A stretch of DNA of 26,010 nucleotides from a virus. The notes under the pieces are model-generated. The model did no database searches. It was given only the letters and a program-made list of their open reading frames with translations, and was not told the DNA's origin. Location of the stretch: positions 1 to 26,010 of the IMG/VR virus record IMGVR_UViG_3300018036_000056; one strand, given 5' to 3'. The position numbers and the translations under genes are program-made. Each line of letters begins with the position of its first letter. Within the stretch, counting starts at the first letter, position 1. Shown one piece after another: positions 4,010-25,877 of this stretch.

Positions 4010-4244
4010 GTGCCTTACCCTTCCATGTAGCAACAGACTTACCTTTAAAGTAATGATCGCCTGCTTCATAGTTTTCTTTTTTGATAAGCTCACGCACTGG
4101 TTCGTAAGCAATCCAATGTATTTCACCACGGCTAATGCCTAAGTCACTTAGTTCGTGATCAGTTAATGCACGAAGTTCGTTGTATGTTTTTTTAGCCAAT
4201 TTCTGTTCTGGAGTAAGTCCAAATAGTCTTTTAAAACTAATCAT
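4002..4244 (-). CDS. DUF1127-family small protein
   Basis: An 80-residue protein containing TYNELRALTDHELSDLGISR at residues ~20-39, which matches the DUF1127 consensus (hydrophobic helix, LR.L.D.EL.D.G..R). Members are short, often basic, and are very frequent in alphaproteobacteria, where some act in RNA turnover, phosphate stress or growth-phase adaptation. The C-terminal half (ISRGEIHWIAYEPV, GDHYFKGKSVATWKGKAHA) is longer than the usual 50-residue DUF1127 protein and not familiar to me. The ATG lies 8 bases inside the preceding gene. Finding DUF1127 in phage context suggests the virus uses a host-type small regulator. Family call is confident; function is not. Confidence 0.75.
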   Translation of the reverse strand: MISFKRLFGLTPEQKLAKKTYNELRALTDHELSDLGISRGEIHWIAYEPVRELIKKENYEAGDHYFKGKSVATWKGKAHA

Positions 4245-15584: not shown

Positions 15585-15929
15585 ATGGCTGAACGAAGCA
15601 ACGAAGAAATAATTGAACAAATTAAATTACTTATAGAATCACATGTTAAACCTGCGGTTGCAAGCCACGGCGGCAATATAGAATTTATTAATTACGACAA
15701 CGGACATTTATTGTTAGAACTAGGTGGTGCCTGTTCTGGATGTGCAGGTAGCACTATGACACTAAAGTTTGGTGTCGAGAATATGATTAAGCATTATGTG
15801 CCTGAAGTACAAAGTATTGATGCACAGGACGACCCCTTCTCAACAGTTAACCCATTTTATTCAGATGACTTAGGGTATGCACACTGGGATACCATTCCTA
15901 AGGAGGGTGACGATGAGCCTAATACTTAA
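15585..15929 (+). CDS. NfuA/NifU C-terminal-type iron-sulfur scaffold protein
   Basis: A 114-residue protein. Residues ~7-80 match the NifU C-terminal domain: VKPAVASHGGNIEFINYD, LLLELGGACSGCAGSTMTLK with the C50-x-x-C53 cluster ligands, and FGVENMIKHYVPEV. This domain holds a transient 4Fe-4S cluster between two monomers and hands it to target proteins. The last ~30 residues are an acidic, Pro-containing tail (DDPFSTVNPFYSDDLGY). The gene is led by a strong sigma-70-like promoter and TTAGGAG, and it overlaps the nuclease gene after it by 17 bases. It may feed Fe-S enzymes such as the phage nuclease, but this is not shown. Confidence 0.88.
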   Translation: MAERSNEEIIEQIKLLIESHVKPAVASHGGNIEFINYDNGHLLLELGGACSGCAGSTMTLKFGVENMIKHYVPEVQSIDAQDDPFSTVNPFYSDDLGYAHWDTIPKEGDDEPNT

Positions 15930-24154: not shown

Positions 24155-24397
24155 ATGATGTGGGTAGACTATAATATAGATAGTATGGGACAACAAGGAG
24201 AAGGCTTTCGTGTTGTTGGTGACTGGCCCGGCGAAGTAATGGGCATAGGCAAAGACGGCTCTCCCAAAAATAGTTGGTTATATAAACCAGGCGATGTCTT
24301 TGTTGTAGACCAAAATGGTTGGCTTCGCAAAAGTGATCATCTTTCATCCTTAATGATGAAGTATGAAGAATCAAAGATTGACAAACAATCAAATTAA
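24155..24397 (+). CDS. Hypothetical protein
   Basis: An 80-residue protein (MMWVDYNIDSMGQQGEGFRV, then VGDWPGEVMGIGKDGSPKNS and a WLYKPGDVFVVDQNGWLRKS strand pair), ending in a charged helix. It reads as a small beta domain; PGDVFVVDQNGWL could be a ligand or nucleic-acid loop, but I recognise no family. The final codons overlap the -35 box of the tmRNA promoter. TAAGGAG supports the start. Confidence 0.66.
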   Translation: MMWVDYNIDSMGQQGEGFRVVGDWPGEVMGIGKDGSPKNSWLYKPGDVFVVDQNGWLRKSDHLSSLMMKYEESKIDKQSN

Positions 24398-24406
24398 TGC
24401 TATAAA
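24378..24406 (+). promoter_or_regulatory. Sigma-70-like promoter of the tmRNA
   Basis: TTGACA (24378-24383), 17-base spacer, TATAAA (24401-24406). Expected start near 24413, just before the RNA. The -10 also reads TATAAATA, the late consensus, so it may be used both early and late. Confidence 0.8.
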
Positions 24407-24424
24407 TATAAGTGTAATTGATGA

Positions 24425-24755
24425 CAGCATCGTATGTCACAAGAACAGGACCGGGGGGCGGTACCCCGCACCTCCACCATAAGCACTCTATCCCAACCTG
24501 TCGAGGGTGGATCGCAAGAACTAAACAGAGTGCTTATGATGGGGGTGAACTAGGATCGACTGGCTTGTTAAGGATGAAAGAGATTACCGGTAAGACACGA
24601 CCGAAACTCAGTTCAAAAAAACTAAACGCAAACAATAACTTTGCACCTGAAGCGTTCACTTCTATAGACATGTCTATGGGCCGTGAACTACTTGCAGCTT
24701 AATAAACTGCAACTTCGCGGTATGGCTCCACCGGGCAACAGAACGGGCCATTTCA
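24425..24755 (+). ncRNA. ssrA: Circularly permuted (two-piece) tmRNA
   Basis: tmRNA rescues stalled ribosomes and tags proteins for proteolysis. Here the 3' acceptor piece comes first: T-stem CGGGG (24452-24456)/CCCCG (24464-24468), then CACCTCC and ACCA (24476-24479). An intervening loop (24480-24540) folds as a perfect stem (24480-24489 with 24527-24536) and would be cut out. The 5' coding piece opens with GGGGGTG (24541-24547), which pairs with CACCTCC as a 7-bp acceptor stem, then TAGGATCGAC. P2 can form from CTTGT (24564-24568) with ACAAG (24439-24443) and GATG (24573-24576) with CATC (24428-24431). The tag reads ANNNFAPEAFTSIDMSMGRE then LLAA (24628-24699), followed by tandem TAA stops in the loop of hairpin TTGCAG/CTGCAA, extended by CCGTG/CGCGG. 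The 3' hairpin ATGGC/GCCAT ends near 24751. The permuted layout matches alphaproteobacteria. Confidence 0.92.
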
Positions 24756-24796
24756 TATTCGGTTAACTTATATAAAAAGATATATAAGTAAGATAT

Positions 24797-24831
24797 CAAG
24801 AGTAGTGTTTAGACACCACTCTTGGTTTTTT
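24797..24831 (+). terminator. Intrinsic terminator of the tmRNA
   Basis: CAAGAGTAGTGT pairs with ACACCACTCTTG with one mismatch, followed by GGTTTTTT. It closes the tmRNA transcript before the porin gene. Confidence 0.88.
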
Positions 24832-24863
24832 ATATCGATATAATAAAAGGAAAGAGAAAACTA

Positions 24864-25877
24864 ATGAAAAAGACTATACTAATGTCTGTGTTATTCGCTT
24901 TGGCTTCATTTGGAGCGATGGCAGACGAAAAGACTCTTGAACAAAGAGTTACCGAGCTTGAGGCAAATGCTCCTAGCTTACCATCAGGGTTGTTTATTAA
25001 TGGTGAAATAGAAATGTACTATGATCCAGATACATACACTTCTGATATTGATTCTCGCGCAGAGATCATCACAGGACTACAAGGTGAGCTTGATGCAGGT
25101 CCAATCAATTGGGCAGGTGGTAGTGCAAGATTTGATTCACACTATTCACTAAACACTGCACTAAACAATACTATTGTCGAAAAGCAAATGGGTTTAGGTG
25201 TAGGTAATGCAAGAATTTACTTAGGTGAAACTGACGCACAGCGTTTAGGTTTTGCTAAAACTCCAAAGATTGGTGTGCCATTAATTATTACAGAATCTAA
25301 CTCAAGAATTGATCACAACGAAAAAATTGTACTGACATTTGGTGGTTGGGATAATAATAACGAATTTGATTTTGACACACACTCTTTAAAAAGAGATCTA
25401 CCAATTGGCGGATCAATTGCATATGATGCGAACACAGAAAAAGTGTACGCAGGTCTAACAGCAAGCCTAATGGGATATGCTGAAGTATCATATATGCAAA
25501 TCGGTGGCAAAGATGACATAACTGATACTGATAAAAATCAGCAAGGTTATGCTATCGGTACTAGTTTATACCGTTGGGATATTCCAGTTGTACTTGGTGT
25601 AGAAATGTGGGACGACAAGAACACAGGCACTTACACTAAAGAAAACAGAATGGACTACGGTGTAATGTATGGCTTAACTGACGAAGTACAGTTAGGTTTC
25701 CATCGTGTTGAAAACGATGATCTTGGTACAAACGGTGACTATCTAAGTGCTGTTTATACACAAGGACCTGTTGAAATGGGTGTTTACTATCACATGACAG
25801 AGAGCCAGAACCTAGGTACTGGTGTGATCACTGAAAATGATGATTCAGTAAAAGCATCTATCAAATATAAGTTCTAA
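24864..25877 (+). CDS. Outer-membrane porin with signal peptide
   Basis: The start is at the ATG at 24864 (MKKTILMSVLFALASFGAMA), after AAGGAAAGAG; the open frame extends 14 codons upstream through the terminator region and is not used. The first ~20 residues are a Sec signal peptide with A-M-A|D cleavage. A short coiled coil (LEQRVTELEANAP) follows, as in many porins, then about 300 residues of alternating strands with Gly/Asp/Asn turns, ending KASIKYKF. The C-terminal phenylalanine is the BAM recognition signal of outer-membrane barrels. The length of 337 residues fits a trimeric porin. No specificity can be read. It is unusual in a phage and may change the host surface, e.g. nutrient entry or exclusion of other phages. 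It ends in a perfect terminator. Confidence 0.85.
   Translation: MKKTILMSVLFALASFGAMADEKTLEQRVTELEANAPSLPSGLFINGEIEMYYDPDTYTSDIDSRAEIITGLQGELDAGPINWAGGSARFDSHYSLNTALNNTIVEKQMGLGVGNARIYLGETDAQRLGFAKTPKIGVPLIITESNSRIDHNEKIVLTFGGWDNNNEFDFDTHSLKRDLPIGGSIAYDANTEKVYAGLTASLMGYAEVSYMQIGGKDDITDTDKNQQGYAIGTSLYRWDIPVVLGVEMWDDKNTGTYTKENRMDYGVMYGLTDEVQLGFHRVENDDLGTNGDYLSAVYTQGPVEMGVYYHMTESQNLGTGVITENDDSVKASIKYKF

Follow-up and report, generated by a model that had tools for sequence, protein, structure and literature searches.

A circularly permuted tmRNA in a marine T4-like phage, and a spacer that probably serves as a cargo slot in its family

The window that we analysed is a virus record of 26,010 bases (IMGVR_UViG_3300018036_000056), a 26-kb fragment, and every feature of the tmRNA locus described here lies on its plus strand. 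Positions 24414-24752 hold a circularly permuted (two-piece) tmRNA of the alphaproteobacterial type. The Rfam model alpha_tmRNA (RF01849) matches 24374-24752 over model positions 1-355 of 355 with 123.2 bits (gathering score 50) and an E-value of 1.6e-33, which excludes a chance origin, and the model tmRNA_permuted (RF04321) matches 24414-24702 over positions 1-213 of 213 with 113.4 bits. These two are the only cmscan matches above gathering score in the whole window. ARAGORN calls a permuted tmRNA at 24383-24793, with the tag ANNNFAPEAFTSIDMSMGRELLAA followed by two stops. The coordinates, which we confirmed letter by letter, are as follows. The acceptor piece, the upstream half of the tRNA-like domain, spans 24414-24479, with a start taken from the RF04321 match that places the mature 5' end only approximately; it contains the T-arm with the loop GGCGGTA (24452-24468), the acceptor 3' strand CACCTCC (24469-24475), A73 (24476) and an encoded CCA (24477-24479). 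A non-coding spacer (intervening sequence) of 61 nt comes next, at 24480-24540, and ends in TGAT. The coding piece (24541-24752, its end taken from the RF01849 match) includes the acceptor 5' strand GGGGGTG (24541-24547), which pairs with CACCTCC and forms G3-U70, the D-loop side, the tag, helix 5 and the 3' pseudoknot region. The tag reading frame occupies 24628-24705: 24 codons (24628-24699) that start from the alanine resume codon GCA at 24628, and then a tandem TAATAA (24700-24705) in the loop of helix 5, which is formed by TTGCAG (24692-24697) and CTGCAA (24707-24712). The locus has the sequence features that mark this class of tmRNA, namely an acceptor piece 5' of the coding piece, a 7-bp stem with G3-U70, A73 and CCA, and a frame that runs from the alanine codon to stops in helix 5.

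An earlier note, made from the letters alone, had proposed the acceptor end 5' of the coding piece, the 7-bp stem joining the two, the tandem stops in the helix-5 loop and the layout of an alphaproteobacterial tmRNA, and had suggested a covariance-model search as a check. Both models score above gathering, and together with the ARAGORN call and the pairings given above they bear out each of these points. The same note saw a perfect hairpin in the excised loop. That description holds for the 12 pairs at its base and fails for the remainder of the hairpin, which is imperfect. The joint fold of T-arm, acceptor stem and spacer has an energy of -51.8 kcal/mol (z -3.6), a value that 0 of 200 shuffles attain.

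The tmRNA is preceded by a phage promoter at 24378-24408, in which TTGACA (24378-24383) and TATAAATA (24401-24408) are separated by 17 nt. Of 275 distinct viral tmRNAs, 124 have the arrangement TTGACA-N16-18-TATAWW upstream, where shuffles predict 0.1, and TATAAATA occurs in 179 of the same 275 upstream regions (5.5 expected from shuffles) but in 1 of 119 bacterial tmRNA loci; in the viral upstream regions the promoter lies nearly always 40-60 nt 5' of the T-arm. TATAAAT was the query for T4-like late promoters in PMC9004378. Since a -35 box of the sigma-70 kind coincides here with a late box of the phage kind, early and late transcription would both be possible. A probable intrinsic terminator, AAGAGTAGTGT-TTAG-ACACCACTCTT followed by GGTTTTTTA, lies at 24798-24832. 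A pattern scan for promoters and terminators listed neither the TATAAATA promoter nor this imperfect terminator, the latter probably because of its one stem mismatch, so that both rest on sequence reading and the promoter on comparison as well. Directly 3' of the terminator, the gene at 24861-25877 (plus strand) encodes a protein with a signal-peptide-like start and the look of a beta-barrel, for which we found no match in Pfam, PHROG, NCBIfam or by phage tblastn.

The class Ia ribonucleotide reductase encoded in the window is closest to those of cyanophages and of Pelagibacter phage Mosig (NrdB 64-66%), and the window also encodes an M15 peptidase endolysin and an exonuclease. Two other genes are worth recording. 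At 3-572 on the minus strand is an N-terminal fragment of 5-aminolevulinate synthase, a host-type haem gene in a phage (TIGR01821, E 4e-73; the match is below the whole-protein cut-off because the gene is cut by the window edge), and at 15585-15929 on the plus strand a protein with a NifU/Nfu-type iron-sulphur carrier domain (PF01106, E 2.5e-23) stands among phage genes. Permuted tmRNAs in such phages have been described. The tmRNA of the marine T4-like Methylophilales phage Melnitz was reported in 2022, and that of Mosig likewise, in a study that listed 53 suggested two-piece tmRNAs from phage genomes, with marine or aquatic samples as the source of 50, and counted 17 permuted tmRNAs in 47 Melnitz-like contigs (PMC9004378). 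The headline of the finding is therefore known, and the window element itself belongs to a known phage tmRNA class; what appears to be new is the spacer slot seen at the level of the family.

The T-loop had been singled out as odd. Its letters were read correctly, but the oddity is ruled out by the RF01849 consensus, GGCgGUA, and by the SAR11 loci, where the parsed tmRNAs found with that model have GGCGGTA in 9 of 12 cases and GGCAGTA in 3 of 12. In an unbiased viral sample of 107 tmRNAs, retrieved by a coding-piece pattern, the commonest T-loops are GGCAGTA (56/107) and GGCGGTA (17/107), and phages with the same tag have GGCGGTA, TGCAATT, TGCGATT, GGCAGTG or TTCAACT. Counts from our other bacterial loci are biased by the T-arm pattern used to find them, and they are left out as evidence on the T-loop. 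The 12 SAR11 loci have tags of 9-10 aa and spacers of 5-12 nt, which indicates that the window RNA is no recent copy of the sampled SAR11 tmRNAs. G3-U70 and A73 are present in 130 of 130 viral matches, neither having been selected for: the scan asked for no more than T-arm pairing, an acceptor stem paired at 7 of 7 positions and the coding-piece motif, and it was used for this count in place of our spacer-length parse script, which requires G3-U70. The viral acceptor stems come in 21 sequence types, and within the phages that share the window's long tag the changes are compensatory (CACCTCC/GGGGGTG, CAGGTCC/GGGCCTG, CGGCTCC/GGGGCCG and CAGCTCC/GGGGCTG). These patterns indicate that selection maintains the RNA as a tmRNA.

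That a 24-codon tag is unusually long, as the earlier note claimed, is confirmed by the distinct tags, with a median of 12 residues in bacteria and 14 in viruses. Sixteen of 146 viral tags have at least 20 residues, so that the window tag stands at the long end, with company. The degenerate pattern PEAFTSxDxxM matched 29 viral stretches and had 0 matches in 385 alphaproteobacterial genomes. Those stretches and the window read A-N-x-N-F-x-P-E-A-F-T-S-[IL]-D-M-S-M-x-x-E-L-x-A-A or close variants, and a contig retrieved by another route (L049) adds a variant with DLSM; in all, about 30 viral contigs encode the long tag. For some of them ARAGORN gives 22 residues, starting from the second alanine, where the reading frame gives 24. 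Among 10 distinct cores the median dN is 0.05 and the median dS 0.64, with dN below dS in every pair. By these comparisons the 24-codon tag is real and, as far as searched, specific to phages. The RNA that encodes it forms a hairpin (z -4.1 in the window's coding RNA) that folds in all ten variants, in which one inner pair has gone from A-U to G-C by two synonymous substitutions, with wobble changes at two outer pairs; this is suggestive of RNA-level selection on the hairpin, though not proof. The idea that the phage has its own choice of proteolysis tag gains from the conservation of the tag among phages and its absence from the 385 genomes searched, and is weakened by the retained LAA end, which makes it look like a degradation tag. 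Set against the 9-14 residues usual in bacteria, a tag of this length might nevertheless have a role other than that of a plain degradation tag, and it offers another way to ask whether proteolysis is altered by phages.

Viral and bacterial tmRNAs differ in the length of the spacer. In the unbiased viral sample (n=107) the median spacer length is 78 nt, 37% are at least 100 nt long and the maximum is 499, whereas at 110 alphaproteobacterial loci the median is 27, the maximum 82, and none reaches 100 nt; the bacterial loci come from a search with a T-arm pattern, which is independent of the spacer and samples only part of the class. The window spacer is closed by the basal stem TAAGCACTCT/AGAGTGCTTA and has both the closing stem and the terminal TGAT of the family (TAAGCACTCT/AGAGTGCTTATGAT, 24480-24540). 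Among 177 distinct viral spacers of at least 40 nt, the ten basal pairs are formed in 93%, compared with 34-65% when the partner is shifted. In 50 distinct relatives, 10 of 10 pairs of the closing stem show changes on both sides, with a covariation of 0.761 against 0.246 for shuffled alignments (0/500) and at most 0.194 when the stem is slid. Because the spacer stem played no part in picking the sequences, except in one search that included some of its 5' strand, the covariation is good evidence for a precursor folded with the closing stem. Together with the compensatory acceptor stems, it agrees with the expectation of the earlier note that paired structure should be conserved among phage relatives.

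What the stem encloses is exchanged, a variability that the earlier note had overlooked. In the alignment of relatives the spacer content is wholly replaced between phages while the flanking RNA is conserved. The window spacer recurs with 1-3 differences at seven other loci (L005, L028 and L122-L126), and at two of these, L124 and L005, identity to the window is 95-100% over the acceptor piece, the spacer and the first bases of the coding piece, but the tags are ANENFASEDLRLAA and ANDNFASEDYALAA and the rest of the coding piece is 66-67% identical. Three loci (L245, L246 and L266) have the window's tag type with a different spacer. The window spacer itself has no significant ORF when compared with shuffles and no tRNA according to ARAGORN, and a cmscan search to E 10 gave nothing credible beyond the tmRNA; it is a non-coding member of the slot family, sharing its closing stem. 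The cultured phages Lacusarx, RcRudolph, MD18 and DSS3_MAL1 have spacers of 74-98 nt without convincing genes, and the 110-nt spacer of L388 holds a complete tRNA-Arg(TCT). Several non-coding types of spacer, 80-154 nt long and each shared by a pair of viral contigs (L016/L024, L047/L111, L050/L102 and L025/L107), look like structured RNAs. A riboswitch as spacer content was considered and dropped, as the glutamine riboswitch of Melnitz sits 3' of the tmRNA, outside the spacer. Two loci in named phages concern annotation. Sinorhizobium phage Phosso has an unannotated permuted tmRNA-like locus at about 700-1330, with a 317-nt spacer and the tag ANDNVSTKVALAA, that ARAGORN does not call, and in Rhodobacter phage RcRudolph (827-1253) the hypothetical protein UUV44828.1 is annotated across the acceptor piece and spacer of an unannotated tmRNA.

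Many of the longer spacers contain genes. Of 91 distinct viral spacers of at least 90 nt, 46 have an ORF that starts with ATG and, counting its stop, exceeds those of 95% of dinucleotide shuffles in length, where about 4.6 are expected; 37 of the 46 are preceded by a Shine-Dalgarno-like motif (5.1 expected), 28 stop on a TGA one base 5' of the coding piece and 14 more end 12 nt before it. About a quarter of the unbiased viral sample (27/107) bears such a gene. In the main group, a family of 38-44 aa that begins MKNPLVREVSKWMF, dN/dS is 0.18 (18 distinct), and in the five other families with at least two diverged members it is 0.04, 0.22, 0.07, 0.30 and 0.24, the last four resting on one to three pairs each; these ratios indicate that the spacer gene families are under purifying selection. 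A 63-aa family matches Pfam DUF6356 at 5e-12, above cut-off. For a 62-aa family the only match in a cultured phage is Melnitz gene 84 (44528-44728; 57% identity), immediately 5' of the tmRNA of that phage (44732-45184); the same type of gene is thus beside the tmRNA in Melnitz and inside the spacer in other phages. The spacer proteins have no convincing match in PHROGs, and the 38-aa family and the 63-aa DUF6356-like protein have none in cultured phages. The tmRNAs around the genes are intact by Rfam in those scanned, save some cut by contig ends, and thymidylate synthase, a T4-type helicase loader or NrdB as neighbours mark several of the contigs as T4-like phages.

A search of viral contigs for the 38-aa family without any tmRNA criterion returned 284 relatives, of which 80 were fetched. 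In 80 of 80 loci the gene adjoins a tmRNA coding piece, and in 76 of them it lies within an intact tmRNA spacer, all 76 with G3-U70. At two others (L523 and L562) the contig end is too near for the upstream piece to show. The last two, L544 and L545 (about 1455-1800), have the gene and an intact coding piece with the acceptor piece absent upstream, whether lost, moved elsewhere or missing through misassembly. Among 26 distinct genes (321 pairs) dN/dS is 0.09, and 61% of changes fall at third positions. By eye, the protein looks like a single-pass membrane protein. Thirteen different tags are found among the tmRNAs that carry the 38-44-aa gene. An overlapping upstream frame in the spacer of this family was rejected as coding, for it has no codon-position bias. 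Other arrangements include L523 (1-215), where two spacer gene families stand in tandem 5' of the coding piece (a frame ending YEDLCM, then MKNPLV), and L314, with two frames in its 499-nt spacer. In L268 (Melnitz-1, 4033-4216), an unannotated frame with Shine-Dalgarno and ATG starts within the spacer and runs about 14 codons into the coding piece, and its KIPKYLSGxR stretch resembles the first frame of the L314 spacer.

Taken as a whole, the locus is very likely a functional two-piece tmRNA gene carried by a marine T4-like phage, alphaproteobacterial by descent and transcribed as a precursor from a phage promoter, in a family whose spacer is a cargo slot. A single precursor would be made, in which the 7-bp acceptor stem pairs both ends of the tRNA-like domain and the 61-nt spacer forms an extended hairpin stacked on it. 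Removal of the spacer, for which the covarying precursor stem argues, would involve RNase P, acting at G24541, and 3' processing as far as the encoded CCA, and would leave an acceptor RNA and a coding RNA joined by base pairs. As in established tmRNA biology, from which we draw these steps of processing, charging, SmpB tagging and ClpXP-type degradation, the host alanyl-tRNA synthetase would charge the RNA through G3-U70, host SmpB would carry it to stalled ribosomes, and these would append the 24-residue tag ending LLAA, marking the product for degradation of the ClpXP type. Ribosome rescue by the phage is what the conserved anatomy suggests. Across the family, the covarying stem would close a slot whose contents are swapped (small protein genes, one tRNA, a short non-coding hairpin). 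We consider it probable that this slot is a dedicated one, for small genes, a tRNA and structured RNAs, and that one precursor would yield a separate small mRNA or RNA in addition to the tmRNA. Where a spacer bears a gene, as with AAAGGAG/CTTTTT, the Shine-Dalgarno is part of the 5' strand of the closing stem, so that translation and tmRNA folding may compete, and ribosomes may gain access mainly on the nascent transcript or after excision.

Could the relatives' spacer genes be unexpressed, as neutral inserts tolerated because the spacer is discarded? Many spacers, that of the window included, have no gene, and an insert would cost little since the spacer is removed from the mature RNA. We find this improbable nonetheless: dN/dS ratios of 0.04-0.30, the excess of third-position changes in the main family, the Shine-Dalgarno motifs, the DUF6356 match and the family shared with the gene directly upstream of the Melnitz tmRNA all speak for coding function. 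Even less credit is due to the view that the whole tmRNA has no function in the phage, being a relic or a host tmRNA captured recently. The alphaproteobacterial origin of the family is clear, and phages do acquire tmRNA sequence from their hosts (PMC9004378), but a relic would hardly show acceptor stems that change in a compensatory way and keep G3-U70, purifying selection on the tag, a phage-type promoter, and a tag and spacer unlike those of the sampled SAR11.

The purpose of the long tag leaves more room for doubt. Ribosomes might be freed while the tag serves otherwise, for example in slower or redirected proteolysis, or the RNA fold might matter and the peptide not. Conservation over about 30 loci, with no match in the 385 alphaproteobacterial genomes, fits another role for the tag, and the hairpin in all ten variants with its one full compensatory change fits a role for the fold. 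The ANxN start and an LAA, IAA or VAA end are retained, however, and a single compensatory change is thin evidence, so that we regard this alternative as possible but rather unlikely, and prefer a working tmRNA whose tag directs degradation.

This group of ocean phages appears to use a discarded tmRNA segment as gene space, with strong selection on both the genes and the stem. Several questions become testable: whether one transcript serves as both ribosome-rescue RNA and mRNA, whether translation of a spacer gene controls tmRNA maturation, and which small membrane proteins phages tie to ribosome rescue. For annotators, tmRNA spacers are a place of missed genes, the unannotated Melnitz spacer frame being an example. 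We found no report of protein genes in tmRNA spacers in PMC11915505, in PMC9004378 or in the other open-access literature searched, and the only precedent that we found for a gene nested in the discarded part of a tmRNA is one tRNA (PMC11915505). That study, with its 11,946 permuted tmRNAs, defines the intervening sequence and describes, as a single unique case, a tRNA-Ala in the intervening sequence of the permuted tmRNA of GCA-2688965, nominally archaeal; another permuted tmRNA there has a repetitive element in it. The GCA-2688965 spacer is like that of L388 in having a complete gene nested inside (tRNA-Ala there, tRNA-Arg in L388), and, as described there, unlike the phage spacers in having no protein genes, phage or shared closing stem. 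Melnitz and Mosig (PMC9004378) share with the window a permuted tmRNA in a marine T4-like myophage. Melnitz also has TTGACA-17-TATAAATA upstream and a long spacer, of 142 nt, but a tag of 14 codons (ANDNYVPVDYALAA) where the window has 24; its spacer contains a frame with Shine-Dalgarno and ATG, although we found no mention of a gene in the tmRNA spacer in PMC9004378. The alphaproteobacterial tmRNAs of RF01849, including SAR11, have the gene order, the GGCGGTA loop, G3-U70, the AN-type start and the AA end of the tag in common with the window, and differ from it in their short spacers (median 27; SAR11 5-12) and in tags mostly of 9-13 aa.
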